Shown here one piece after another: positions 23,991-37,951 of a stretch of 64,000 bases of DNA. A model generated the notes under the pieces. It ran no database searches and had not been told where the DNA came from. It was given only the letters and a program-made list of their open reading frames with translations. Source of the stretch: Methylocystis sp. MJC1 (GTDB lineage: Bacteria; Pseudomonadota; Alphaproteobacteria; Rhizobiales; Beijerinckiaceae); NCBI RefSeq assembly GCF_026427715.1, contig NZ_CP107559.1:124001-188000 (forward strand), given 5' to 3'. Position 1 is the stretch's first letter. Every line of letters starts with the position of its first letter. The translations under genes were made by a program, and so were the position numbers.

Positions 23991-26687
23991 TCATTTCCGC
24001 GCCGAGGCGATCAACCGCGCGATTTCTGGCAAGCAGGAGCCGCAATTCGTGCCAGCGCCGAGCTTTGAGCCGATCTCGCCTGTGGTCCGGCATCCGTCCT
24101 TGGCCGCGGAGTCGATGCGCGCTGCGCCGACTCCAAAGCACGCACAAACGATCGGACCTTCCAAATCCTCGCCGACACGCGACGAGAGAAGTGCGAGTCG
24201 TTGGCGTCCCTCAACTCTTTCGTGAGCGAATATATCGATCGCCGCATCCCAGCAAGGCGATTCCGTTCCCGCATGAAGCACAAAAATTGGCTTGTTTTCC
24301 ACAAAGGCGGCCGCACGAAAAAGCCCGCGCGCGGGATCGGCGCATTCGACAACGTCATGCGTAGCTTCGCGATGCAGGAGCGGAAGCCATTCATGCGCCC
24401 GTAGATCGCTAGCCAAACGATAGGCAAAACCGCCGTCGATCGTAATCCGGCTCCACCAGAAATCTTCTGGCAACGCAATTGTCCGTCGGACGAGGAGGAA
24501 GCCTTCGGCGGCGAAATTATGAGGGGTGACGTCGGCGGGCGTCGCCTTCATTTCGGGCTGGCCGGAAACGGGATCGGCGAAGGGCGCGACGAGGGCCCCG
24601 ATGCGCGCCCGCGCGGCGGTCTCGTTGGTCCAGTGAATGGGCGCGAAGATGCTCCCCTCCGGCTGGCGATCCGTCACGACGACGCGAAGCGCGCAGGCGC
24701 CATACGCAGTTGAGACGCGCGCGAATCCTCCATCCGCGAGGCCACAGATCGCCGCGTCTTGCGGGTTGATCTCGACGAAGGGCTCCGATAGATGGCGGGC
24801 AAGACGCGGGCTTGCGCCCGTGCGGGTCATCGTATGCCACTGGTCGCGAATGCGGCCCGTATTCAGACGCAACGGATAATCTCGTGAAATCGCGGTCGCG
24901 AGTGCCGGCGGCGCCGGCGCGACGAAGGCGGCGCGCCCATTTTCTCGAAAGAACCCGCCCTCCGCGAAGAGGCGCTTGGTTCCTACCGCTGCGCCAGCGC
25001 GAAAAGGCCAATGTGTGGGCTCCAGCGCGTCATAGGCTTCATCGCTCAGCGTCGCCAGCCCGCCGATATCGAAATCGCGCTTTCCGTCATTCTCGAAGGC
25101 TGAAAGCGCCGCATGTTCTCGGAAAACCTCGGCGGCGGACCGGAAGTCGAAACCCGAAAAACCCATTGTTTTGGCGAAATCGCAGAACACGCGCCAATCC
25201 GCCCGCGCTTCTCCCGGCGCCGGGAGAAAGGCGCGTTGGCGGGAAATGCGGCGTTCGGAGTTGGTAACTGTGCCGTTCTTTTCGCCCCAGGCCTGCGCAG
25301 GCAGAAGAATATGCGCGCCGCTATTGATGGTGTCGTTGGACAGCACATTGTCGGAGACGACGAAAAGTTCGAGCCTCTCCATCGCGGCGCGCGCCGCATC
25401 CGCATCCGGCATGGAGGCGGCTGGATTGGTGCCCACCACCCAAAGCGCTTTGATCTCTCCCTTGGCGATGGCGTCGAACATGTCGACCGCCTTGAGCCCC
25501 TCATGCTCCGCCATGCGCGGCGCGTTCCAGAAGCGGCGCACACGGTCGATGTTTTTGGGCTCGAAACCCATATGCGCCGCGAGGCTGTTTGCGAGGCCGC
25601 CGACCTCGCGCCCGCCCATGGCGTTTGGCTGACCGGTGAGCGAAAAAGGCCCGGCCCCGATTTTTCCGATGCGACCGGTTGCAAGATGGCAATTGAGGAT
25701 CGCATTGACCTTGTCCGAGCCCTGCGCGGATTGGTTTACGCCTTGTGAAAAGAGGGTGACGGTCCGCTCCATGCACGCGAACATGTCGAAAAAACAAGTG
25801 ACATCGCTTTCGCCGAGGCCGGTGATCGCCGCCGTTTCCGCCGCGGTCGCCGTGAGGCGGAAGGCGTTGGCGAGAGCCGTGTCAAAACCCTCGGTGTATT
25901 TTTCGATGTAATCGCAGTCGATCGCGCCAGCGCGGGCGAGATGTGCGAGCAAGCCGGAAAAGAGAGCCTGATCCGACCCTGGCGATATTTGCAGGAAGAG
26001 ATCGGCGTTCTCCGCGGTCGCCGTGCGACGCGTGTCGATGACGACCAGTCGCGCGCCGCGCTCCTCTTTGTTGCGCATGATGCGCCGGAAGACGATGGGG
26101 TGGCACCAGGCGGCGTTGGAGCCGACAAGAACAATGAGATCTGCTTCGTCCAGATCCTCGTAACAACCCGGCACTGTATCGGTTCCGAAGGCGCGCTTGT
26201 GACCTGCGACGGTCGAGGCCATACAGAGACGCGAATTGGTGTCCACGTTGGCCGAGCCAAGGAAGCCCTTCATCAGCTTGTTGGCGACGTAATAATCTTC
26301 GGTCAGCAATTGCCCCGAGAGATAGAACGCGACCGCGTCCGGGCCGTGACGCTCGATAACGCGCGTAAAACCCCGAGCGGCTTCTGTCAGCGCGTCGTCC
26401 CACGAGATGCGCGCGAAACCACGTTCCCTGCGACGCATCGGATAAAGCAATCGTCCGTCGAGGGCCAATGTCTCGCCCAAAGCCGACCCTTTGGAGCAGA
26501 GCCTTCCGAAATTCGCCGGATGCGCCGGGTCGCCCGAAATAGTCGCACCTGCGCCATCTTGCGCGGCCAGCACGCCGCAGCCGACGCCGCAATACGGACA
26601 GGTCGTGCGCGTCGCAGTGGGCGCGGCGCGACTGGTTTCCAACGCACAGCAGGCGGTGGACGACGGCATCGTCTCGGCGTCGAGCAT
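23991..26687 (-). CDS. nasA: Assimilatory nitrate reductase, catalytic subunit
   Basis: An 898-residue cytoplasmic molybdopterin enzyme that reduces nitrate to nitrite. The N-terminal [4Fe-4S] site uses Cys30, 33, 37 and 64 (CPYCGVGC...CSKG). Cys155 in TNSRLCMAST is the likely Mo ligand. The molybdopterin-binding segments (VVGTNPAASMPDADAA, LNTGRIRDQWHTMTRTG) are present. A C-terminal BFD-like [2Fe-2S] domain with CACFGVG and TNCGSCLPE marks the assimilatory NasA/NasC type. The ATG at 26687 overlaps the stop of the upstream flavoprotein gene (TGATG), replacing a much longer spurious frame. It is the last gene of the nrt-nas operon. Confidence 0.95.
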   Translation of the reverse strand: MLDAETMPSSTACCALETSRAAPTATRTTCPYCGVGCGVLAAQDGAGATISGDPAHPANFGRLCSKGSALGETLALDGRLLYPMRRRERGFARISWDDALTEAARGFTRVIERHGPDAVAFYLSGQLLTEDYYVANKLMKGFLGSANVDTNSRLCMASTVAGHKRAFGTDTVPGCYEDLDEADLIVLVGSNAAWCHPIVFRRIMRNKEERGARLVVIDTRRTATAENADLFLQISPGSDQALFSGLLAHLARAGAIDCDYIEKYTEGFDTALANAFRLTATAAETAAITGLGESDVTCFFDMFACMERTVTLFSQGVNQSAQGSDKVNAILNCHLATGRIGKIGAGPFSLTGQPNAMGGREVGGLANSLAAHMGFEPKNIDRVRRFWNAPRMAEHEGLKAVDMFDAIAKGEIKALWVVGTNPAASMPDADAARAAMERLELFVVSDNVLSNDTINSGAHILLPAQAWGEKNGTVTNSERRISRQRAFLPAPGEARADWRVFCDFAKTMGFSGFDFRSAAEVFREHAALSAFENDGKRDFDIGGLATLSDEAYDALEPTHWPFRAGAAVGTKRLFAEGGFFRENGRAAFVAPAPPALATAISRDYPLRLNTGRIRDQWHTMTRTGASPRLARHLSEPFVEINPQDAAICGLADGGFARVSTAYGACALRVVVTDRQPEGSIFAPIHWTNETAARARIGALVAPFADPVSGQPEMKATPADVTPHNFAAEGFLLVRRTIALPEDFWWSRITIDGGFAYRLASDLRAHEWLPLLHREATHDVVECADPARGLFRAAAFVENKPIFVLHAGTESPCWDAAIDIFAHERVEGRQRLALLSSRVGEDLEGPIVCACFGVGAARIDSAAKDGCRTTGEIGSKLGAGTNCGSCLPEIARLIASARK

Positions 26688-28276
26688 CAATAAACGTCCT
26701 GCTGGTAGCGCCCGGATTTCTTCAGCCCGTTCACGAAGGCGATGGCTTCGTCGACGCTGCGCGCGCCGAACTCCGACACGACGTCGACGAGCGCGCGCTC
26801 CACATCCTTCGCCATGCGCTGGGCGTCCCCACAGACGTAAAAATGCGCGCCCTCGGCGAGCCAGGCCCACAATTCGCGGCCCGACTGGCGCATGCGATCC
26901 TGCACGTAGAATTTTTCCTGCCCGTCTCGCGACCATGCGAGCGAGAGGCGCGTGAGGAGGCCGGCCGCTTTCATGGTTTCGAATTCGTCGGCGTAGAAGA
27001 AATCACAGGCCGCGCGCTGGTGACCGAAGAAGAGCCAGTTCTTCCCCTTCGCGCCTTTGGCCGCGCGCTCCTGCAGGAAGGCGCGGAAGGGCGCAACGCC
27101 TGTGCCCGGGCCCACCATGACGATGGGCGTTTCCGGATCATCGGGCAGGCTGAAGCCATGCGCCGGTTGCACATAGGCCATCAAGGTCTCACCCGGCGCG
27201 ATCCGTTCTGCGAGGAAAGTCGACGCGACGCCGAGACGCTTGCGCTTGCCGACGACATAGCGAACCGCGTCGACGGTCAGCGACAGCCGACGCGGCGTCG
27301 CGTTGGGAGAGGACGAGATGGAATAGAGCCGGGGTTGCAGAGGCTCGAGCGCTTCGACGAAAGCTTCCGGATGCGGGCGTGCGCTCGGGAATTTTTGAAG
27401 GACGGCGAGCGCGTCGAGCGTGGCGGCGTCGCCATCCGGGTCGTCGCCATGCGCCAGAAGCCGCGCCTTCTCGCGTTGCGCGCCGCCGGTGACGAAGGAA
27501 ATGAGCTCGAAAAGCGTATCTGGCGCCGGCGAGAGCGAGACGTCGCACTGCAGGACTTCTCGCAAGGTCTTGCCGCGCACAGGCGTAAGATGGGAGGCTC
27601 CGAGCATGGCGATGATCTGATCGACGAGGCCAAGTTCGTTCTTCGCGAAGACGCCAAAACTGTCGCCGGCCTTGTAATCGAGCGCGCTTTCGCGGAGATC
27701 GAATTCGACGTGCCAGGTTTCTTTTGCGGATCCCTCCCCGTTGAGGCGACGGCGCGAAAGAAATGTCGCTGGCGCCGGATTATCGCGGGAGCGGCCCGCC
27801 GCCAATGACGTTATCGCAGGCTCGCTCGGGCGCGGAGTTGTGCGCTTGGACGGCTCCTCCAGCTCGGCCGCAAGCGATTTCAGCATGCGCGCCGTCTCCT
27901 TGCCGCCTGGCGCGCAAAGATTGAGCCTTGCTTCCTTGCGAGCGACGAGCGCGTCGGCGTAACTCGCGCAATTATACCCGCATTGTCCGCAATCCTGCTG
28001 CGCCATGGCGGCCATCATGCGCCGGCGCAGCGGACGTCCTTCGGCGAGCGCCATGCGGTCGTCGAGGGCGAGGGTCTGGTCATGCCAGGGAGCTTCGCCG
28101 TCATCCTCGACCGGGGCCGGCATGACGGCGGCGTTGGCCTGCGGCGAGAGCGGCGTCACAAGCGCATTGTCTGGCGCAACGAGGGCCACAAAGAAGCCGT
28201 TCAGCCAGGCGCGCTGTTCGGGCGAGAAGGGCGCGCTTTCGGGGATGAGACTCTGTGGCGGAGCGATGTGGTTCAT
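26687..28276 (-). CDS. CysJ-like FAD/NADPH reductase with Fe-S domain
   Basis: A 529-residue flavoprotein resembling the reductase half of sulfite reductase alpha subunit (CysJ) but without a flavodoxin domain. An N-terminal cysteine cluster (DCGQCGYNC, then LNLCAPGG about 20 residues later) looks like a [4Fe-4S] domain. FAD binding is shown by RLYSISSSPN, and the pyridine-nucleotide site by VMVGPGTGVAPFRAFLQER and a C-terminal FYVCGDAQRMAKDVE. Its place between nirA and nasA, overlapping both, suggests it passes electrons from NADPH to nitrite or nitrate reductase. Which one is not shown by sequence. Confidence 0.82.
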   Translation of the reverse strand: MNHIAPPQSLIPESAPFSPEQRAWLNGFFVALVAPDNALVTPLSPQANAAVMPAPVEDDGEAPWHDQTLALDDRMALAEGRPLRRRMMAAMAQQDCGQCGYNCASYADALVARKEARLNLCAPGGKETARMLKSLAAELEEPSKRTTPRPSEPAITSLAAGRSRDNPAPATFLSRRRLNGEGSAKETWHVEFDLRESALDYKAGDSFGVFAKNELGLVDQIIAMLGASHLTPVRGKTLREVLQCDVSLSPAPDTLFELISFVTGGAQREKARLLAHGDDPDGDAATLDALAVLQKFPSARPHPEAFVEALEPLQPRLYSISSSPNATPRRLSLTVDAVRYVVGKRKRLGVASTFLAERIAPGETLMAYVQPAHGFSLPDDPETPIVMVGPGTGVAPFRAFLQERAAKGAKGKNWLFFGHQRAACDFFYADEFETMKAAGLLTRLSLAWSRDGQEKFYVQDRMRQSGRELWAWLAEGAHFYVCGDAQRMAKDVERALVDVVSEFGARSVDEAIAFVNGLKKSGRYQQDVY

Positions 28277-30024
28277 TTTGAAATCTCCGCATCGGACAGA
28301 CGGCGGATTGTCTCCGTGTCCAGGCGCCGCGCGAAAGCGACGAATGTCTCCGCGTCATTCAGGCGAGCGCCGCGATAGGCGCGCAAAATTGCGGCGACCG
28401 TCTTCGGCGCGTCCTCGGCCTTCACGTTGAGGAAAAGCTCGCGCGCTATGCCCGCCGCTTCTCCAAAGCCGCCGCCCGCAAGAATGTGATACCCAGCGAC
28501 CGCGTCGCCTTCGTCATTGACCGGAACGCGCGCGCCGATAAGGCCGATGTCGCCGATGTAATGCTGCGCGCAGGAATGATGACAGCCGGTGAGATGGATG
28601 TTGATCGGCGTGTCGATCGGCGCAGTCGCGTCACAATGATCCGCGATCGCCGCCGCGTCCTGTTTGGTGTCCGCGGCGGCGAAACGACAGCCGAAACTTC
28701 CGGTGCAGGCGACAAGGCCCGCGCGAATGGGCGAGGCCTGCGTAGATAATCCCAAGGCCTCTATCGCTTCGACGGCGCGCGCCACATCGTCATTCTTGAC
28801 GCCGGTGACGAGCACGTTCTGCCAGACGGTAAGCCGCAAGCAGCCGTCGCCGAAAGAGCGAGCGATATCGGCGAGGCCGCGGGTCTGCGCGGGCGTCAAG
28901 CGGCCGAGCGGCAAGGCGACGCCGATCCAGTTAAGTCCCGTCTGTTTCTGCTTATGCACGCCGATATGCGCCTGACGATCCTGGCGCGGCCGCGCAGCTA
29001 TCGCGTCTATCGGCGCGCGCGTAAGGGAGCGGCCCAATTTCTCCTCGACCACTGCCAGAAACTTATCGACACCCCAGGCGTCGAGCACATATTTGAGTCG
29101 TGCTTTGGCGCGGTTCGTGCGGTCGCCATGCTCGATGAAGACACGCAGGATTTTATCCGCGACTCCGACAGCCTCCTCAGGCCGGACAATCACGCCAGTG
29201 TCGCGTGCAAAGTCCTTGTGGCCGGTAATGCCGCCGAGCGTCAGGCGAAAGTAGACGCCCGGCGCGATCCCATGCCCGTCGAGGATTTCTACCGCCTGAA
29301 AGCCGATATCGTTCGTGTCCTCCAGCGCGCCGATGAGTCCCGCGCCGTCAAAGGCGATGTTGAATTTACGCGGCAAACCGTAAAGCGAACGGTCATTCAG
29401 GATATGATGATGCATGGCGCGCGCATAGGGGCGCGTATCGATCAGCTCCTGAGGGTCGACTCCCGCCGTTGGCGTGCCGGTTATGTTGCGAACATTATCC
29501 GCGCCAGAGCCCTTGCTCCAGAGCCCGAGATCCTGAACGGCTTCCACGATCGTGGCGGCGTTCCGAGGTTCGATTTGTCGAATCTGGAGATTGGCGCGAG
29601 TCGTTACATGCAGATAGCCCCCGCCCATCGCTTCCGCGAGGTCGGCGAGGCCGGCGAACTGCCAATGGGTCAGCGCGCCATTCGGAATGCGAAGGCGCAG
29701 CATGTATGCGGACTGCGCCGGCGCGACATAGAAGAGGCCATAGTAGCGCCAGCGAAAATTCTCCGCGGGCTTGGGCGGCGCGTTCTCGTTCGCCTGTTCG
29801 ACCAGACGCGGATAGGCGTCGAAAGGATGCTCCTCTCGCTTCCATTTTTCCTGATCGGTCAGCTTGCCGCCGACCGCGACGGCGTGGTCCTGCGCTTCTA
29901 AATGCGCCGCGTCCGGCCCCATGGGTTTCGGCGTTGCCGTCGCGGCGCGGCCCCCGTGCGCAAAAAGGCCGGCGGCGAAGCCTTCGAGATAGCGTTTCTG
30001 ATCGAGTGTGAAATCAGCCGACAT
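28273..30024 (-). CDS. nirA: Ferredoxin-type nitrite reductase
   Basis: A 583-residue sirohaem and [4Fe-4S] enzyme of the NirA family, which makes ammonium from nitrite in six electron steps. Two ferredoxin-like repeats are visible (MLRLRIPNGALTHWQFAGLA and IGVALPLGRLTPAQTRGLAD). The cluster ligands are in ACTGSFGC and LTGCHHSCAQH; sirohaem-contacting THVTTRANLQ-like and RKFNIAFDG segments are present. The stop overlaps the next gene (ATGA). An assimilatory sulfite reductase is the alternative reading, but the operon with nrt and nasA favours nitrite. Confidence 0.88.
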   Translation of the reverse strand: MSADFTLDQKRYLEGFAAGLFAHGGRAATATPKPMGPDAAHLEAQDHAVAVGGKLTDQEKWKREEHPFDAYPRLVEQANENAPPKPAENFRWRYYGLFYVAPAQSAYMLRLRIPNGALTHWQFAGLADLAEAMGGGYLHVTTRANLQIRQIEPRNAATIVEAVQDLGLWSKGSGADNVRNITGTPTAGVDPQELIDTRPYARAMHHHILNDRSLYGLPRKFNIAFDGAGLIGALEDTNDIGFQAVEILDGHGIAPGVYFRLTLGGITGHKDFARDTGVIVRPEEAVGVADKILRVFIEHGDRTNRAKARLKYVLDAWGVDKFLAVVEEKLGRSLTRAPIDAIAARPRQDRQAHIGVHKQKQTGLNWIGVALPLGRLTPAQTRGLADIARSFGDGCLRLTVWQNVLVTGVKNDDVARAVEAIEALGLSTQASPIRAGLVACTGSFGCRFAAADTKQDAAAIADHCDATAPIDTPINIHLTGCHHSCAQHYIGDIGLIGARVPVNDEGDAVAGYHILAGGGFGEAAGIARELFLNVKAEDAPKTVAAILRAYRGARLNDAETFVAFARRLDTETIRRLSDAEISK

Positions 30025-30025
30025 C

Positions 30026-31240
30026 TCAGGCCGCCTCTCTCAATTGCGGCGCCTCGAACACGAGCTCGTCGCGTATTGTGGCGATGTTGTTCCCGGTGCG
30101 GATGAGGTCGAGATAGGCGCTCGCGCTGCTCGTGTCGCCGATGAGAACCGCCCCCTTGAGGCAATCGCCCTCGATCACGAGCTTGCGATAGACGCCGAGG
30201 CGCGGATCCTTGCAGACGATCTCGCAAAGGCCCTCGCCGGCGATGAAATCGCCGGCCGAGAAAACACGCACGCCAGAGACTTTCAGATTGGTCGCGACGA
30301 GGCTGCCGTGATAAACGGCGTCCGCTCCCGCAAGGCGGGCGGCAAGAACCCGCGCGTGCTCATAAGCCGGCTCGACGAGCCCGTAGCACTGGCCACGATG
30401 CTCTACGCATTCGCCGATGGCAAAAACATTTGCATCGCTGGTCGCAAGACCGTCGTCAACAACGACGCCGCGATTGACCGCAAGGCCGCCTGCTTTCGCA
30501 AGCTCGACATTGGGGCGGACGCCGACCGCGAAAACGACGGCGTCGGCGGGGAGGGAGCGGCCGTCCTCGAACTCCACGCGTTCAACGCAGCCATCGCCTC
30601 GGATATGCGAGGCGTTGGCCCGCAACATGACCCGGACACCCTTCTCTTCGACCATGCGATGCAGGATGGCCGCGCCGGCCTGATCGAGCTGACGTTCCAT
30701 CAGCCGGTCCATCACATGGGCGAGCGTCACGCGCGCGCCGCGCTTCACGAGGCCATAGGCCGCCTCGAGACCGAGCAGGCCGCCGCCGATCACCAGAACG
30801 CTGGCTCCCTTGGCGCCGAGTCGCGCCAGCGCCTCCACATCCTGCATGTCTCTGAAGGTATGGACGCCTGGCAGGTCCGCGCCCTCGATCGGAAGGCGCA
30901 TGGCGCGCGATCCCGTCGCGAGGACGAGCTTGGAATAGGCGATGCGCTCTCCATCTTCGAGGACAAGAACGCGCGAGGCCGTGTCTAGCCGCACCGCTTT
31001 TTGTCCGGTCGTAATTTCGACGCCATTTGCGCGCCACCACTCACGCGGCTTCAGCACGATGTCGTCAAGTCTAACTTCGCCGGTCAGCGCCGAGGAAAGA
31101 AGCACGCGATTATAAGCCAGGCGCGGCTCTTCGCCTATGACGTGGATTGCATAGCGACCGGGAGCCGCCGCGATCAGTTCGTCGACGAGGCGGGTCGCCG
31201 CCATGCCGGCGCCGACAATGACGAGCGTTTCCTTTTCCAT
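30026..31240 (-). CDS. FAD-dependent NAD(P)H oxidoreductase (NirB N-terminal type)
   Basis: A 404-residue two-dinucleotide-fold protein like the first third of NirB and like rubredoxin reductases. The FAD motif VIVGAGMAATRLVDEL opens the protein, SVLVIGGGLLGLEAAYGL is the NAD(P)H site, and ANVFAIGECVEHRG is the second FAD motif. The sirohaem part of NirB is absent, so it cannot reduce nitrite alone. In many nas operons such proteins feed electrons to NasA, which is the favoured role. It lies one base upstream of nirA and 12 bases downstream of nrtD. Confidence 0.82.
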   Translation of the reverse strand: MEKETLVIVGAGMAATRLVDELIAAAPGRYAIHVIGEEPRLAYNRVLLSSALTGEVRLDDIVLKPREWWRANGVEITTGQKAVRLDTASRVLVLEDGERIAYSKLVLATGSRAMRLPIEGADLPGVHTFRDMQDVEALARLGAKGASVLVIGGGLLGLEAAYGLVKRGARVTLAHVMDRLMERQLDQAGAAILHRMVEEKGVRVMLRANASHIRGDGCVERVEFEDGRSLPADAVVFAVGVRPNVELAKAGGLAVNRGVVVDDGLATSDANVFAIGECVEHRGQCYGLVEPAYEHARVLAARLAGADAVYHGSLVATNLKVSGVRVFSAGDFIAGEGLCEIVCKDPRLGVYRKLVIEGDCLKGAVLIGDTSSASAYLDLIRTGNNIATIRDELVFEAPQLREAA

Positions 31241-31252
31241 CGGCGCCGCTCC

Positions 31253-32047
31253 TTACGCTGCTTCGACATAGCGATGACGCTCGTATAGGAATTGCAGAAC
31301 CCGCTGACGGCATTCCAGATAGATTGGATCCGTCGCCAGCGTGATGCGGTCGCGCGGGCGTCGCAGGGGGACGTCGAGAATCTCACCAATCGTCGCCTGG
31401 GGACCATTCGTCATCATCACGATGCGATCGGAAAGCAGCACGGCCTCGTCGACATCATGGGTGATCATCATGACCGTATTGCCGAAGCGCTCCTGCAGCT
31501 TCATGACCTGATCCTGAAGATGCGCGCGCGTGAGCGCGTCGAGCGCGCCGAAGGGCTCGTCGAGCAGAAGAACCTTCGGCTGCATGGCGAGCGCCCGCGC
31601 AATGCCGATGCGCTGCTTCATGCCGCCAGAAATTTCGCTGGGACGCTTGTCTTTCGCATGGGTCATCTGGACGAGCTCCAGATTATGCATCGTCCATTCG
31701 TGACGCTTTGCGCGTGTCGCCGTTTTGCCGAATACCTTGTCGACGGCGAGGCGAACATTTTCGTATGCCGAGAGCCAGGGCAGCAGGGAATGGTTCTGGA
31801 AAACGACCGCGCGGTCGGGACCGGGCGAATTTACCTCTCGGTCTTCCAGCAATACGCCCCCGCTCGTCGAGCTGGTGAGGCCGGAGACGATATTGAGAAG
31901 CGTGGACTTGCCGCAGCCCGAATGGCCGATGATCGAGACGAATTGCCCTTTCTCTACTTTCAGGCAAACATTGTCGAGCACCTTGGTCACGTTCGCGCCC
32001 CGCGTAAAAACCTTGACGACGTTTTCGATGCTGAGATAGCTGCTCAT
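31253..32047 (-). CDS. nrtD: Nitrate ABC transporter ATP-binding protein
   Basis: A 264-residue ATPase of the NrtD/SsuB/TauB group. Walker A is GHSGCGKST, the signature is SEISGGMKQR and Walker B is LLLDEPFGALD. The ATG at 32047 gives the conserved start YLSIENVVKVF, follows an AGGAGAGAAG site and replaces a longer frame that reads back into nrtB. With NrtA and NrtB it imports nitrate or nitrite. Confidence 0.93.
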   Translation of the reverse strand: MSSYLSIENVVKVFTRGANVTKVLDNVCLKVEKGQFVSIIGHSGCGKSTLLNIVSGLTSSTSGGVLLEDREVNSPGPDRAVVFQNHSLLPWLSAYENVRLAVDKVFGKTATRAKRHEWTMHNLELVQMTHAKDKRPSEISGGMKQRIGIARALAMQPKVLLLDEPFGALDALTRAHLQDQVMKLQERFGNTVMMITHDVDEAVLLSDRIVMMTNGPQATIGEILDVPLRRPRDRITLATDPIYLECRQRVLQFLYERHRYVEAA

Positions 32048-32058
32048 TTCTTCTCTCC

Positions 32059-32949
32059 TCAATTTGCCTGCGCGCCACGGGTCGCGAGATTTCCGATGAA
32101 GGCGACAAAGCGGTCGAGGATGAAGCCGGTGAGGCCGATATAAATCAGCGCGACGAAAATGTCGGGAAGGCGCGACGAGTTCCACGCGTCCCAGATGAAG
32201 AAGCCGACGCCGACGCCGCCCGTGAGCATTTCAGCCGCGACGATTGCGAGCCAGGATAGGCCGACGCCGATACGAAGACCCGTGAAAATGTAAGGCGCAG
32301 CGGAGGGGATCATGATTTTCCAGAAGAACTCGATGTGATTAAGCTGCAGGACGGCCGCGACGTTTCGATAATCCTGCGGGATGTTACGGATGCCAACCGC
32401 TGTGTTGATGATGATCGGCCATATCGACGTGATGAAGATCACGAATATTGCGGAGGGTTGGGAGTCGCGGAAAGCTGCGAGCGAAATAGGCAGCCAGGCG
32501 AGCGGCGGCACGGTGCGCAGCACCTGGAAGATCGGATCAAGGCCACGGGTCGCCCATTGCGACTGTCCGACAAAGGCCCCGAGCAGAATGCCGGCGACGC
32601 TCGCGAGACCAAAGCCGACGCCGACGCGTTTCAATGAGATGAGCACGCGCCAGCCGAGGCCTATATCCTGAGAGCCGGCTTCGTAGAACGGATGCATGAT
32701 CAGCTCTTTCGCCTCGCTCCAGATGCGTAGGGGCGAAGGGAGGGCTGACATCGGGCTCATGCAGAGGAGTTGCCAGACGAATAGTAGGAGCGCGAGAGTG
32801 ACGAGCGGCGGAATCGTGGCGGCGAAGAAGGTCTGGATGTTCGCCTTGTATTTGATCAGCAGCGGGATGGGCCGACGGCGATATGCCTCTTCGATCTCTT
32901 CGTCGTAGAAGGCAGCCGAGCGGTCGTTGTTGGCGAGCGGCATGGTCAT
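32059..32949 (-). CDS. nrtB: Nitrate ABC transporter permease
   Basis: A 296-residue inner-membrane permease with about six helices and a BPD_transp_1 domain. The coupling region with VPPLAWLPISLAAF (the EAA-type loop) and the GVGLSWLAIVAAEMLTG segment are typical of the NrtB/SsuC/TauC group. It lies 15 bases after nrtA. Confidence 0.93.
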   Translation of the reverse strand: MTMPLANNDRSAAFYDEEIEEAYRRRPIPLLIKYKANIQTFFAATIPPLVTLALLLFVWQLLCMSPMSALPSPLRIWSEAKELIMHPFYEAGSQDIGLGWRVLISLKRVGVGFGLASVAGILLGAFVGQSQWATRGLDPIFQVLRTVPPLAWLPISLAAFRDSQPSAIFVIFITSIWPIIINTAVGIRNIPQDYRNVAAVLQLNHIEFFWKIMIPSAAPYIFTGLRIGVGLSWLAIVAAEMLTGGVGVGFFIWDAWNSSRLPDIFVALIYIGLTGFILDRFVAFIGNLATRGAQAN

Positions 32950-32964
32950 GTCTTTATCGCTCCC

Positions 32965-34278
32965 TTAAACTGCGGCGCGCTTGATGGACTGGCTCTTGAG
33001 ATAGTCGAGCGGCTTGTCTGGGTCGAAGACCTTGCCGTCGAAGAAGGTCTCCTTGCCGCGCGAGGTCGAGGTCGGGATGTCTTTCGCAGAAACGCCCGCA
33101 ATTTTTGCGGCCTCGCGCCAGAGATCCTCGCGGTTCACCTTGTCGACGACGGCCTTAATGTCCGTCTTGGCGTCGAGCTTGTTCCAGCGGATGTCTTCGG
33201 TGACGAACCAGGCGTCGTGGCTCTTGAATGGGTAAGAGGCGTTGTCACGCCAGAACTTCATACCGAACTTCGTACCCTTTGCGCTGCGCCCATTGCCGTA
33301 ATTAATATCGCCCTTCAATCGGCCGATAATGTCGGTCGCTGGGACGTTGAACCACTGACGGCGTCCAACGATTTCCGCCAGCTCCGCCTTGTTTTCGGGT
33401 TTATCACACCATTGCTGCGCTTCGATCACAGCGGCGACGAGCGCCTTCGCCGCCTTCGGATTTTTGTCGACCCATTCGGCGCGCATGCCGAGGGATTTTT
33501 CAGGATGCTTGAACCAAAGTTCGCCGGTCGTGCAGGCTGTGTAGCCGACGCCTTGATTAACGAGCTGCTCGTTCCATGGCTCGCCGACACAGAAGGCGTC
33601 CATATTCCCGACTTTCATATTCGCGACCATTTGCGGCGGGGGGACCACGATGGTCGAAACATCCTTGTCGGGGTCGATGCCTGATGCGGCGAGCCAGTAG
33701 CGCATCCACAGATCATGCGTTCCACCGGGAAAGGTGACGGCGACTTTGATCTCCTTGCCTTCGGCCTTCTTCTTGGCGAAGACGGCCTTCAGCGCATCGG
33801 CTTTCACCCCGGCCTTGAAATCCTTGTATTCGTTGGAAACGGAAATTCCTTGACAATCAAGATTGAGGCGGGCGAGGATGTACATTGGCGTCGGCGCATT
33901 GTTTTGCGTCACCTTGCCGGTTGAGATCAGATAAGGCATCGGCGTGAGAATGTGTGCGCCGTCTATGCCGTTGTTGGCGCCGCCCAGCACCGTATTGTCC
34001 CGCGAGGCGCCCCAGGAAGCCTGCTTGACGACCTCGACGTCGGGCATGCCGTATTTGGCGAAAAGCCCCTTTTCTTTTGCGATAATCAGCGGCGCTGAAT
34101 CGGTCAGCGCAATATAGCCGAGGATTGCCTTCGTCGTTTCGGGCCCCGCACCCTCCGCAAAGACGCCACTCGGCAAGTCGACGGCGGAGGCGACAAGCGA
34201 GGCGGCGGCGCCTTTCAAAATGCTCCGGCGATCGAGACGCATCGGTGCGGGATTGGAATTGCCGGGCGTGTTCGACAT
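32965..34278 (-). CDS. nrtA: Nitrate-binding protein of the ABC transporter
   Basis: A 437-residue periplasmic solute-binding protein of the NrtA/CmpA type. The N terminus has a Tat signal (LDRRSILKGAAASLVASAV). Family segments include GYIALTDSAPLIIAKEKGLF, VTFPGGTHDLWMRYWLAASG and DAFCVGEPWNEQLVNQGVGY. It is the first structural gene of the operon nrtA-nrtB-nrtD-FAD protein-nirA-CysJ-like-nasA, and is preceded by the ANTAR leader and a sigma-54-like promoter. Homology to NasS next door is clear, but NasS lacks the signal peptide. Confidence 0.95.
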   Translation of the reverse strand: MSNTPGNSNPAPMRLDRRSILKGAAASLVASAVDLPSGVFAEGAGPETTKAILGYIALTDSAPLIIAKEKGLFAKYGMPDVEVVKQASWGASRDNTVLGGANNGIDGAHILTPMPYLISTGKVTQNNAPTPMYILARLNLDCQGISVSNEYKDFKAGVKADALKAVFAKKKAEGKEIKVAVTFPGGTHDLWMRYWLAASGIDPDKDVSTIVVPPPQMVANMKVGNMDAFCVGEPWNEQLVNQGVGYTACTTGELWFKHPEKSLGMRAEWVDKNPKAAKALVAAVIEAQQWCDKPENKAELAEIVGRRQWFNVPATDIIGRLKGDINYGNGRSAKGTKFGMKFWRDNASYPFKSHDAWFVTEDIRWNKLDAKTDIKAVVDKVNREDLWREAAKIAGVSAKDIPTSTSRGKETFFDGKVFDPDKPLDYLKSQSIKRAAV

Positions 34279-34319: not shown

Positions 34320-34401
34320 AAAAAAAAGCCGCTGTCCGAGACGGTCCGTTAGCGGACGGTTCGGAACAGCGGCGTTGCTGCATGGGTCCTGCGCTGGACC
34401 C
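34320..34401 (-). promoter_or_regulatory. ANTAR (NasT) antitermination leader with intrinsic terminator
   Basis: On the minus strand, hairpin P1 is GGGTCC-AGCGCA-GGACCC (34401-34384) and P2 is CAGC-AACGCC-GCTG (34380-34367). Both hexaloops have A at position 1 and G at position 4, the known ANTAR recognition pattern. The 3' arm of P2 is shared with a terminator stem (GCCGCTGT pairing with ACAGCGGC, 34373-34328) followed by eight U. NasT binding to P1/P2 would block the terminator and let nrtA be transcribed. Structure is read by eye. Confidence 0.88.
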
Positions 34402-34431
34402 CGCGCCGGGAGTGGCGCTTCGGCTTATCTT

Positions 34432-34447
34432 TGCAAGCGGGGCGCCA
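34432..34447 (-). promoter_or_regulatory. Sigma-54 promoter of the nrt-nas operon
   Basis: The minus strand reads TGGCGC-CCCGC-TTGCA, matching the -24/-12 consensus TGGCAC-N5-TTGCA at all but one position. The predicted start of transcription is about 34420, just before the P1 hairpin. This implies control by RpoN and probably NtrC under nitrogen limitation. Confidence 0.75.
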
Positions 34448-34580: not shown

Positions 34581-35726
34581 TCAAGGCGCCGAGCGGATCG
34601 CGAAAGAATTGAGATAACCTTCGATGTTTCCCGCATCGCAGACAGGTCCCGAAAAGGCGACGATGGGCGCTGCTTCGACAGGGGCCAGCCTTGTTGCAGC
34701 GTTGAAGAAAGCGGGAGTGAAGACGCCTTGCGCGGTACGTAGCGCTTCTTCGGATCTATCCGCTTGTCCCCATCGCCGCATTTGTGCGTAAAGCCAAGCG
34801 GCCTGAGAGGCGTCCGGGCGCCCCGACTCATAATCACCGAAGATAAGGTAATTGGTGGTCTCGGCGTTTCCGAGCAAACGCCCATCGAGCGCCCGGCGCA
34901 AGGAGTCGATGTCGGAGCCGACGCGGTCGGGTCGCGCAAGGAGCGCGGCGACTTCCTCGCGGTTCGCTCGCGCGCGAATGTAGTCGCCTGCTTTCAGACA
35001 CGCGCGGATGAGCGCCTCGACGAGTTGCGGCTCGCTGTCTGCAACCTGTCGACGAAACGCCAATGTTTTTTCCGGCGCCGGATGAAAGATCGCGGGGCCC
35101 GGATGCAGGATGACGCCGATGCCCATTCCTTCCGCGACCGCGTTCCAAGGCGCGCCGACGCAGAACCCATCGACATGCCCCTTGGCCAAATTCTCGACCA
35201 TGTAAGGCGGCGGCAGAACGACGAGTTGCACGTCGCTGTCGGGATCGACGCCGCCTTCCGCCATCCAGTAGCGTAGCTGGTAATTATGCGTCGAGAAGGG
35301 AAAGGTCATGCCGAAAGTGAGCGGCTCGGCGTTGCGCTTTTGCCGGGATGCTACGACCGCCTTCAAAGCACGCGCGCTGATCAATGGATCGCCAAGATCG
35401 CCGTCCGCCGCGGCGACAAGGCTTGCATGAAGGTCTGGCGAGATAGTGATGGCGTTGCCGTTCATGGCGAGATTCATTGCCGCTATGACAGGCGCGCGCA
35501 CATGGCTCAAGCCCAAGGTTGATGCGATGGCCATTGGCGCCAAGAGATGCGCGGCGTCGTAATGGCCGATCGCGAGCCTGTCACGAACATTCGACCAAGA
35601 AACCTCGCGCACAAGTTCGATATCGAGCCCTTCAGCCGCGGCGAAGCCCTTGTCGACGGCGACGAAGAGACTGGCGGCGTCGGCGAGCGGAATGAAGCCG
35701 ACCTTGATTTTGCGATCCGCGTTCAT
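34581..35726 (-). CDS. nasS: NasS, nitrate sensor
   Basis: A 381-residue cytoplasmic protein homologous to NrtA (VGFIPLADAASLFVAVDKGF, TFGMTFPFSTHNYQLRYWM, GFCVGAPWN) but with no signal peptide. NasS proteins hold the ANTAR protein NasT inactive until nitrate binds. The ATG overlaps the nasT stop by four bases, so the two are made together. The gene lies upstream of the nrtA leader on the same strand. Confidence 0.9.
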   Translation of the reverse strand: MNADRKIKVGFIPLADAASLFVAVDKGFAAAEGLDIELVREVSWSNVRDRLAIGHYDAAHLLAPMAIASTLGLSHVRAPVIAAMNLAMNGNAITISPDLHASLVAAADGDLGDPLISARALKAVVASRQKRNAEPLTFGMTFPFSTHNYQLRYWMAEGGVDPDSDVQLVVLPPPYMVENLAKGHVDGFCVGAPWNAVAEGMGIGVILHPGPAIFHPAPEKTLAFRRQVADSEPQLVEALIRACLKAGDYIRARANREEVAALLARPDRVGSDIDSLRRALDGRLLGNAETTNYLIFGDYESGRPDASQAAWLYAQMRRWGQADRSEEALRTAQGVFTPAFFNAATRLAPVEAAPIVAFSGPVCDAGNIEGYLNSFAIRSAP

Positions 35727-36361
35727 TTCAGTAGCTCCGAAGCCGTAATGATGGACTGCGCGATTTCGGAAATTTTTTTGCTCTCGCGCATAGCCGCGCC
35801 ACGCAATAACTTGTAGGCCTCGTCTTCCGAGAGTTTCTTCGCCTTCATCAGAATGCCTTTCGCGCGATCGATCGTCTTGCGTTCTTCAAGATCCGAGCGC
35901 GCGCGCTCCAACTCGTTCTGTAACTTGGCGAAGGCGTTGAAGCGCGACACGCAAAGGTCGAGGATCGATTTGATCCGCTCTTTCTTCAGCCCGTCGACGA
36001 TATAAGCGGAAACGCCGGCGTCGACAGACGCTTGAATGGAGGCCGCGTCGGATTGATCCACAAACATGGCGACGGGCCGACGGACGGCGCGGCTCACCTG
36101 AAACATCTGTTCAAGTTCGTCGCGAGAGGGATTCTCGAGGTCGATGAGAATGACGTCGGGGTCGATCGCATAGACCCGCTTCAGCAGGTGGTGGCGCTCG
36201 GCGATGTGTTCGACCTCGATGAAGCCGGCTTCGCGTAATCCTTCCTTGAGGATGGCGGCGCGGATGGGACTCTCGTCGATGATGACAATTTTCACGGGCG
36301 GGGCGGGGGTAGTGACGGCGGCTCTAAGCTTCGGCTTCACTGACGCTATAGAGATGTCCAT
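35723..36361 (-). CDS. nasT: NasT, ANTAR-domain antiterminator
   Basis: A receiver-like domain (VKIVIIDESPIRAAILKEGL, then DPDVILIDLENPSRDELEQ) is followed by a coiled coil and a C-terminal ANTAR domain (RKTIDRAKGILMKAKKLSED, then AYKLLRGAAM). ANTAR domains bind paired hexaloop hairpins in RNA. The ATG at 36361 gives 212 residues; start choice is uncertain, with an upstream in-frame ATG near 36412 and a GTG just before VKIVIID. A possible sigma-70 promoter, TTGACG-N17-CACAAT, lies at 36372-36400; it would fit one of the later starts better. The targets are the two leaders at 34320 and 37818. Confidence 0.9.
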   Translation of the reverse strand: MDISIASVKPKLRAAVTTPAPPVKIVIIDESPIRAAILKEGLREAGFIEVEHIAERHHLLKRVYAIDPDVILIDLENPSRDELEQMFQVSRAVRRPVAMFVDQSDAASIQASVDAGVSAYIVDGLKKERIKSILDLCVSRFNAFAKLQNELERARSDLEERKTIDRAKGILMKAKKLSEDEAYKLLRGAAMRESKKISEIAQSIITASELLK

Positions 36362-36623: not shown

Positions 36624-37763
36624 CTAGATTTTCACTTTGAGCTGCATGCTTGCCTGCCAGTTCTTCATGATCTGCGGCCCATTGAGGTTTTGATAAACGG
36701 GCAAACCCGCTTCCACGCCGAGCGACCAGTTTTCATAGCCAACGAATCTCCCGCTAACGGTCGCTCCGCCGAAAAGCTCGACACGCTGTCCGCCATAAAA
36801 GAGCGGATTGCTCGGCACAGCCGCTCCGCGAATCTCCGGATCCCAGCCGCGGATCGGCCCTTGCAGCGAAGCGCTGGCGCGGAAAGTCGTGGTGAGTCCT
36901 GGTATCCAAGTGTACCCGCCCCAGCCGCTCAACTCATGGAGATCGCCCCAAAGATAGCCTTGCGGATTGGGACCGAGGGGAAAACGCCCACGATAAGACG
37001 CCCCCCAAGACCATGGGCCGAGATACCCCGCATAGACCACGCCCGGCATGATGTCGAATGTGCCTGTCCCGAGCTGCATGCCATAGAAGCCGCGAATGTT
37101 CTGCACCGTCCGGTTCGGCAGAATAAAGTCGTTGAAGGTGGCGGTGTTGCTGCCGGTCGGAAAGGAGAAGCCGAGAGAGATTTGGACGCGATTGATGTCG
37201 TCCTGATAGACGCGATAGACGCCGGATAAGGCGAAGTCGGAGAGGCTCGCTGTCGTCGGGTAGTTTCTCGCAAGCGGGAGGATCCCACTTGCCCCCTTGA
37301 ATACGATGGTATCGAGGCTCTTTTCGGCCATGCCGGCGTTGAGCACGACGTTGAAGTCCCTTGTCACACCGTAACTAAGGCCGAGGATTTGCGTCCGGAA
37401 AGCGATGTTCTGCGGAACGATGCGTACGGTCTGAGTCGGGTTGAGGAAGAATGGCACCGTTGAGACGATGTATTCATTCGAAACCGTTCGGGTCCCCATT
37501 TTAATGCCCGAGAGGTTTCCAATGGTGGGGGTGATCGAGACGACCAGCTTGCCGGCAGCCGGCATGTCGACGCCGAAAACGCCTATCGGCCCGGGTGGCG
37601 GCGCTGGAGGGGCCGCCGGCGCCGCGGGCGCTGGGGCGGGAGTGGCGAGCTTTTTCTCAAGGTCCGAAGCTTGCGCGCCGAGCGCAACAAGAGAGAGCGT
37701 TGCGCCTGCTATAGAGCGTCGCGCGCAAAGGCGTACATGGGAGAAATGGCGTCCCTTCTTCAT
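36624..37763 (-). CDS. Outer-membrane beta-barrel protein, probable nitrate-regulated channel
   Basis: A 379-residue exported protein. The ATG at 37763 gives a basic signal peptide ending ALGAQAS, followed by a Pro/Ala-rich linker. The rest alternates polar and hydrophobic residues with many Gly and aromatic residues and ends in an amphipathic strand (WQASMQLKVKI). It resembles the transporter family PF13557 (once named MetA-pathway of phenol degradation), which are outer-membrane barrels. A sigma-54-like promoter and ANTAR leader upstream place it under the same control as nitrate uptake. A role as a nitrate or nitrite pore is inference. Confidence 0.75.
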   Translation of the reverse strand: MKKGRHFSHVRLCARRSIAGATLSLVALGAQASDLEKKLATPAPAPAAPAAPPAPPPGPIGVFGVDMPAAGKLVVSITPTIGNLSGIKMGTRTVSNEYIVSTVPFFLNPTQTVRIVPQNIAFRTQILGLSYGVTRDFNVVLNAGMAEKSLDTIVFKGASGILPLARNYPTTASLSDFALSGVYRVYQDDINRVQISLGFSFPTGSNTATFNDFILPNRTVQNIRGFYGMQLGTGTFDIMPGVVYAGYLGPWSWGASYRGRFPLGPNPQGYLWGDLHELSGWGGYTWIPGLTTTFRASASLQGPIRGWDPEIRGAAVPSNPLFYGGQRVELFGGATVSGRFVGYENWSLGVEAGLPVYQNLNGPQIMKNWQASMQLKVKI

Positions 37764-37817
37764 CGTCAGCCTGCCGGTTCGTCGTGCGCCCAAGCATTCT
37801 GCGAAGGCGTCGAGCAC

Positions 37818-37907
37818 AAAAAAAAGCCGCTGGCCGATAAGCCGTCGCCAATTGGCGACCGTGCTATCGGAACAGCGGCGTTGCTGATTGTGACCCGCCT
37901 TTGGGTC
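37818..37907 (-). promoter_or_regulatory. Second ANTAR antitermination leader with intrinsic terminator
   Basis: On the minus strand, P1 is GACCC-AAAGGC-GGGTC (37907-37892) and P2 is CAGC-AACGCC-GCTG (37886-37873). Both loops have A1 and G4, and P2 is identical to that of the nrtA leader. The terminator stem (GCCGCTG pairing with CAGCGGC, 37879-37826, with an inner CCGATA/TATCGG stem) is followed by eight U (37825-37818). The barrel gene starts about 55 bases further on. Confidence 0.87.
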
Positions 37908-37936
37908 CATCCACGTGTGTGGCTGGGACGAAGCTG

Positions 37937-37951
37937 GCAAATATTAAGCCA
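37937..37951 (-). promoter_or_regulatory. Sigma-54 promoter of the barrel gene
   Basis: The minus strand reads TGGCTT-AATAT-TTGC, with exact -24/-12 spacing and the invariant GG and GC. The predicted start is near 37925, shortly before the ANTAR hairpins, as in the nrt operon. Confidence 0.65.

Follow-up and report, generated by a model that had tools for sequence, protein, structure and literature searches.

A predicted outer-membrane barrel gene of Methylocystis lies behind a putative NasT-responsive leader and is a candidate member of the nitrate assimilation regulon

The gene for a predicted outer-membrane beta-barrel protein of 379 amino acids (positions 36624 to 37763, minus strand, of the 64,000-nucleotide stretch of Methylocystis DNA that was analyzed and is referred to here as the window) was found to have the same set of control elements as nrtA, the gene for the periplasmic nitrate-binding protein. 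In both cases, a -24/-12 (sigma-54-type) promoter is followed by two hexaloop hairpins with A at position 1 and G at position 4 of the loop (A1/G4) and by a terminator that shares an arm of the second hairpin, P2, as a sequence-only reading of the same DNA had described. Judging from these elements, it is very likely that the barrel gene is under the control of NasT, and the explanation that probably best accounts for the observations as a whole is that the gene belongs to the nitrate assimilation regulon, with a product that most likely functions as a nitrate/nitrite pore.

On the minus strand, the barrel gene is followed directly by nasT, then by nasS, and then by nrtA-nrtB-nrtD and the genes for a NirB-like reductase, NirA, a flavoprotein, and nitrate reductase. 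The gene nasT (35723 to 36361; the start is uncertain, and the frame is open to 36412) encodes an antiterminator with Response_reg and ANTAR domains, in agreement with the earlier placement of NasT beside the barrel gene. The next gene, coding for a nitrate/nitrite sensor of the NMT1_2 family (34581 to 35726), was named nasS because it adjoins nasT and its product is similar to NrtA. The gene nrtA (32965 to 34278), also of the NMT1_2 family, was named by its place before the genes for the nitrate ABC permease NrtB (32059 to 32949; TIGR01183 over cutoff) and ATPase NrtD (31253 to 32185; TIGR01184 over cutoff, start uncertain). The remainder of the nas operon (23991 to 31240) codes for the NirB-like reductase, NirA, the CysJ-like flavoprotein, and, as the last protein, nitrate reductase, which was named from its sequence, the others being named by family scan. 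All of these genes are on the minus strand.

The putative promoter of the barrel gene (TGGCTTAATATTTGC, 37937 to 37951, minus strand) was located by pattern scan. It is followed on the same strand by hairpin P1 (gaccc-AAAGGC-gggtc, 37892 to 37907), identified from the hexaloop motif, folding, and covariation, by hairpin P2 (cagc-AACGCC-gctg, 37873 to 37886), and by the intrinsic terminator (37818 to 37879); the likely coding start is the ATG at 37763. The terminator stem (37879 to 37826) is directly followed by eight T residues (37825 to 37818), and its 5' arm begins within the P2 loop and takes up the P2 3' arm, the terminator thereby excluding P2. When the whole leader was folded, P1 and the terminator were formed (-51.3 kcal/mol; z score, -4.36). 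Folding without the terminator 3' arm gave P1 and P2, a fold that as a whole was not clearly more stable than shuffled sequences (z score, -1.37). The two A1/G4 hexaloop hairpins, together with a P2 3' arm common to the terminator, are the features by which ANTAR targets are recognized.

The nrtA leader (34320 to 34402, minus strand) likewise consists of P1 (gggtcc-AGCGCA-ggaccc), P2 (cagc-AACGCC-gctg), and a terminator, behind a -24/-12 promoter found by pattern scan (TGGCGCCCCGCTTGC, 34433 to 34447, minus strand). The earlier claim that the loop and stem of P2 are identical in the two leaders was borne out, as 20 nucleotides through P2, CAGCAACGCCGCTGTTCCGA, are the same in both, and no third site with three or fewer mismatches to this block is present in the window (0.01 expected). 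The full leader motif occurred twice in the window and in none of 200 first-order Markov surrogates, which, with the low expectation for the P2 block, rules out that the leader arose by chance. No Rfam family matched within the window at gathering scores. The -24/-12 pattern alone is at chance level (5 sites in the window versus 3.17 expected), and the weight of the site derives from its place rather than from the number of such patterns. A TGGC-N7-TTGC sequence of the kind expected for a sigma-54 promoter stands ahead of the barrel leader, and in its strict form this pattern starts 50 to 77 nucleotides ahead of P2 in 28 of the 31 leaders compared, which are distinct though related (L041, L050, and L060 lack it); it was found in none of 93 control stretches taken from farther upstream.

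These 31 leaders were collected from loci of relatives, and by our reading of the loci by eye, 24 precede barrels and 7 precede nrtA or other nas genes; the set is one of related sequences and includes the loci in which the leader was first sighted. Three of the five P1 pairs show two-sided, compensatory changes, and in P1 and the lower terminator stem, 97.5% of cells pair, compared with 36 to 56% when the partners were slid. The P2 stem is invariant and the lower terminator stem is without two-sided change, so that both represent conservation rather than covariation. A covariance model (R1) built from the 31 leaders returned two places in the 4.54-Mb genome at an E value of 0.01, the leaders of the barrel gene and nrtA. 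A search of the genome for the ANTAR domain (PF03861) gave one protein, NasT, which is thus the only ANTAR protein found that could read both leaders. The predicted combination of sigma-54 transcription and ANTAR antitermination, already proposed in the sequence-only reading, is strongly supported by the conservation, the P1 covariation, the two-site genome search, and the linkage to nasT.

An ANTAR protein was present in 29 of the 37 genomes of the genus that were searched, and a barrel match was located approximately 0.5 to 1.4 kb from the ANTAR domain in all 29 nasT-bearing genomes (compared by eye). The leader precedes the nasT-side barrel in 26 of them. In G001 and G013 it is unreadable, the contig breaking off within the barrel match or 66 bases ahead of it, and in G032 no leader was found in the readable 0.23 kb, within which similarity to a sister gene stops. 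A second nasT in G025 (L123) lies beside nrtA, with no barrel within the 8 kb read. In G035, one of the 26, the nasT-side barrel gene is interrupted, with separate pieces on contig C26 (3105 to 6049), and the genome holds another copy; the interruption suggests that the nasT-side barrel is not indispensable in G035. Another broken copy of a leader-led barrel, with an internal stop, was noted in G005 (contig C2, 42296 to 43088). Among the eight genomes of the genus without an ANTAR protein, five have no barrel, and G007, G010, and G027 have only distant barrels (44 to 47%). G010 and G011 lack an ANTAR protein yet have a leader before nrtA, so nasT may be missing from drafts.

The genus to which G079 belongs, a second one within the same family, has a barrel in 8 of 10 genomes, and all 8 have the leader approximately 0.1 kb ahead of one barrel copy. 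In the rest of the class, no leader was found directly before such a barrel in 190 genomes, G000 apart (two lists compared by eye), of which 30 have a barrel of the same family and 14 have the leader; in G415, barrel and leader share a contig and are separated by 36 kb. A sample of 150 genomes contained 17 leader sites outside both genera, and 14 of the 16 that were read precede nitrate assimilation genes. Of the remaining two, L108 is truncated by the end of its contig, and the weak site L128 has no nitrate assimilation genes behind it. In some Methylocystis, further NasT-type leaders were observed (L104, L105, L106, and L122); the first nucleotide of their P1 loop is T rather than A, and they precede a 573-amino-acid protein that was assigned to MFS_1 in L105, the locus scanned. 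In L110 to L112, no gene for a 573-amino-acid protein follows the leader, and the first long frames in L110 and L112 include a 477-amino-acid saccharopine dehydrogenase-like protein (scanned in L110).

The product of the barrel gene is, with high probability, an outer-membrane barrel, as had been proposed; this assignment draws on a distant profile match of the PF13557 type and on natural gene fusions. The N terminus resembles a signal peptide when inspected by eye. The more specific label PF13557 was sustained only as a remote profile-to-profile relation. The protein in the window had no Pfam match, PF13557 included (its gathering score was not reached), and no NCBIfam match, and Pfam, NCBIfam, and PDB sequence searches with the barrel and 64 relatives gave no informative family. 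A profile of the 64 relatives did align with five PF13557-matching proteins (hhalign probability, 98.4%; E value, 9e-15), with the C terminus in common, and gave no signal against three other PF13557 proteins, the set that finds PDB entry 4rl8. Relatives in L031 (the paralog in the same genome, L031:8948-11137), L041, L050, and L061 are joined to OMP_b-brl barrels within a single polypeptide, and a 1,519-amino-acid frame in L051 (7344 to 11903) combines POTRA, ShlB, the barrel, and two OMP_b-brl stretches. Fusion to OMP_b-brl and to POTRA/ShlB barrels fits an outer-membrane barrel. The protein in L060 was also taken as a multibarrel protein, from its long tail only. Many relatives are named "alpha-amylase" in public records, a label for which nothing in this analysis gave support. 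The pI of the mature protein is 9.4, with the end of the signal peptide judged by eye. Net charge did not differ between 18 leader-linked and 24 other barrels (P = 0.14; last 330 residues, with 14 of 56 domains dropped as shorter than 340 residues), and there was no sign of anion selectivity in this comparison.

Barrels of another family, PF13372 ("alginate export family"), were found in NasT-linked nitrate loci of other bacteria, and they are not detectably related to the Methylocystis barrel (hhalign probability, 0.8%). An ANTAR protein and a PF13372 barrel were both present in 30 of 299 genomes of the phylum, and in 10 of these 30 the two genes are within 25 kb on one contig (compared by eye). 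Nitrate uptake or reduction genes surround the barrel in 9 of the 10; in G177, the nas genes seen were confined to nasT and nasS, approximately 19 kb from the barrel. The family of G371 (Thalassotalea) was chosen because the pattern had already been seen in G371. Among its 26 ANTAR-bearing genomes, 22 (all except G616, G661, G624, and G652) contain a PF13372 barrel no more than 25 kb from the ANTAR gene; these counts share ancestry. In 16 of these 22 loci, nrtD and the barrel gene are direct neighbors in the same orientation; of the other 6 barrels, 2 adjoin nasT or nasS (L178 and L188) and 3 occupy other places within the nas locus (L190, L192, and L195). The barrel in L145 is approximately 1.7 kb from nirB. 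A visible ANTAR leader heads the barrel-containing nrt operon in L146, L147, L150, L180, and L189; since none is visible in the other PF13372 loci, either the scan is insensitive or leaders are absent there. The PF13372 barrels in nas loci were catalogued as L144 to L154 and L178 to L195.

Paralogs of the Methylocystis barrel that lie away from nas genes are mostly leaderless. This is true of L031, L033, L035, L038, L040, L045, L047, L051 to L053, L056, L061, L062, and L067 and of the second copy in L059, and a nas-type copy in L016 (a contig of G035) also lacks the leader. Leader-led barrels without nasT in the stretch read were found in L034, L036 (only 10.6 kb), and L048, which suggests that the control follows the barrel; the leader-led barrel of L057 has nrtABD and a partial match to nasS as neighbors. 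When presence of the leader was mapped onto a tree of 54 barrels (L029 and L023, at contig ends, were omitted), 6 changes were required, compared with 17.9 in shuffles, a clustering that near-copies inflate. The leaderless paralogs in L033, L035, L038, L045, and L047 are 57 to 59% identical and lie near genes for a second NMT1_2-type ABC importer (family scanned in L033). A double-barrel paralog in L061 (5173 to 10384) is 1.3 kb upstream of two genes which we take to be pmoC- and pmoA-like.

These paralogs bear on two other explanations of the leader. Given the strand and order common to the barrel gene, nasT, and nasS, the leader might serve to autoregulate nasT-nasS, with the barrel gene a mere passenger between the leader and the regulator. 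This was judged unlikely, indeed improbable, because of the leader-barrel units without nasT in the stretch read, and also because the barrel stays at nasT in all 29 nasT-bearing genomes though paralogs lie elsewhere. It is still less probable that the hairpins are a relic or act constitutively, leaving the barrel gene outside nitrate control. In Bradyrhizobium, narK-bjgb-flp rose in a nasT mutant, with hairpins predicted for narK and bjgb in that report (PMC6759348), and thus a predicted leader hairpin is no guarantee of activation by NasT. Against a relic stand the covarying P1 pairs, the retention of P2 and the terminator in 31 distinct leaders, and the absence of the leader from most paralogs off the nas loci.

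The identity of the solute is less certain than NasT control of the barrel gene. Passage of nitrate or nitrite is the reading that we somewhat favor, because the only co-target found is the nitrate importer/reductase operon and the linkage is almost perfect, and the PF13372 barrels that other bacteria have in their nas loci strengthen it. Leaderless barrels of the same family in other contexts and the similar net charges weaken it, and selectivity for nitrate in particular appears doubtful. Ions as small as nitrate might in any case cross the outer membrane through general porins. A less probable possibility, which deserves some weight, is that the NasT-controlled barrel carries another solute needed during nitrate use (for example, molybdate, iron or copper complexes, or a hydrophobic or organic nitrogen compound) or acts as an exit for nitrite. 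Paralogs in the same genomes lie beside a different NMT1_2-type ABC importer, which suggests that members of the family do not all serve a single solute. In addition, the crystal structure of the COG4313 channel Pput2725 and the transport work reported with it point to hydrophobic solutes (PMC4493636), a result that counts against nitrate as well as in favor of another solute; a solved COG4313 structure is PDB 4rl8, found by database search. Against another solute stand the finding that the genome has just one further leader of this type, that of the nitrate importer/reductase operon, and the position of PF13372 barrels right after nrtD in most of the Thalassotalea-family loci, which points to the importer's own substrate.

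With nitrate or nitrite as the preferred solute, the following mechanism can be proposed. Under nitrogen limitation, sigma-54 RNA polymerase, presumably activated via NtrC, would start the barrel transcript. In the absence of nitrate and nitrite, NasS would hold NasT, and the leader would fold into the terminator. When nitrate is present, NasT would be freed to bind the P1 and P2 loops and keep P2 folded, allowing transcription to run on into the barrel gene and perhaps into nasT-nasS, which would create a positive loop. The product would insert in the outer membrane and most likely admit nitrate and/or nitrite to the periplasm for NrtA.

The crossing of the outer membrane by nitrate is a step that is rarely assigned, and a barrel that shares the RNA switch of the importer is a concrete candidate for it. 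The PF13372 parallel makes the question of a nitrate pore a general one. We consider it an evenly balanced question whether many Gram-negative bacteria have a dedicated, nitrate-induced outer-membrane pore that supplies the NrtA importer, with unrelated barrel families having been recruited on two or more occasions (PF13557-like in Methylocystis and the second genus, PF13372 in other Pseudomonadota). The names "alpha-amylase" and "alginate export" given to the genes might be why such a pore has gone unassigned, and these two misleading database names would then be corrected. The candidate can be tested where methanotroph genetics works; gene deletions and insertions have been reported in one type I and one type II methanotroph, the latter being Methylocystis parvus OBBP (PMC9942187). 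A literature search, mostly of open-access papers, gave no report of a NasT-controlled outer-membrane barrel, a result that speaks weakly for novelty. Searching 5.39 million open papers for phrases such as "nitrate porin" yielded a single, unrelated paper, and a word search of the main text of a Methylocystis proteome paper (PMC9600857) gave nothing on the barrel protein.

Among known systems, the COG4313/PF13557 channels, such as Pput2725, resemble the barrel and its C terminus remotely by profile and differ in that the protein described here has no direct Pfam match. The PF13372 loci are similar in having an outer-membrane barrel in a NasT-linked nitrate locus; those barrels usually come after nrtD, whereas the Methylocystis barrel gene is the first gene behind its own leader. 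In its two A1/G4 hexaloops, the overlap of P2 with the terminator, and the nitrogen genes downstream, the leader follows the dual-hairpin rule given for targets of EutV, NasR, AmiR, and NasT by Ramesh et al. in 2012 (PMC3369931). The target in Methylocystis is an outer-membrane barrel gene, whereas the main text of that study does not contain the words "outer membrane" or "porin." Among the surveyed Bradyrhizobium genes that were lowered in a nasT mutant, a clear hairpin is stated only for coxS and nirA; among the raised genes tabulated in the same account, the one seen listed as an "outer membrane protein" is blr1311 (PMC6759348). The nasT-nasS pair and a leader before nitrate uptake and reduction genes are common to Methylocystis and the NasS-NasT systems of Paracoccus (PMC5424462, PMC3795266) and Bradyrhizobium (PMC6759348). 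Unlike those systems, as far as these accounts describe them, the Methylocystis locus has a second NasT-type leader, which stands ahead of the barrel gene.
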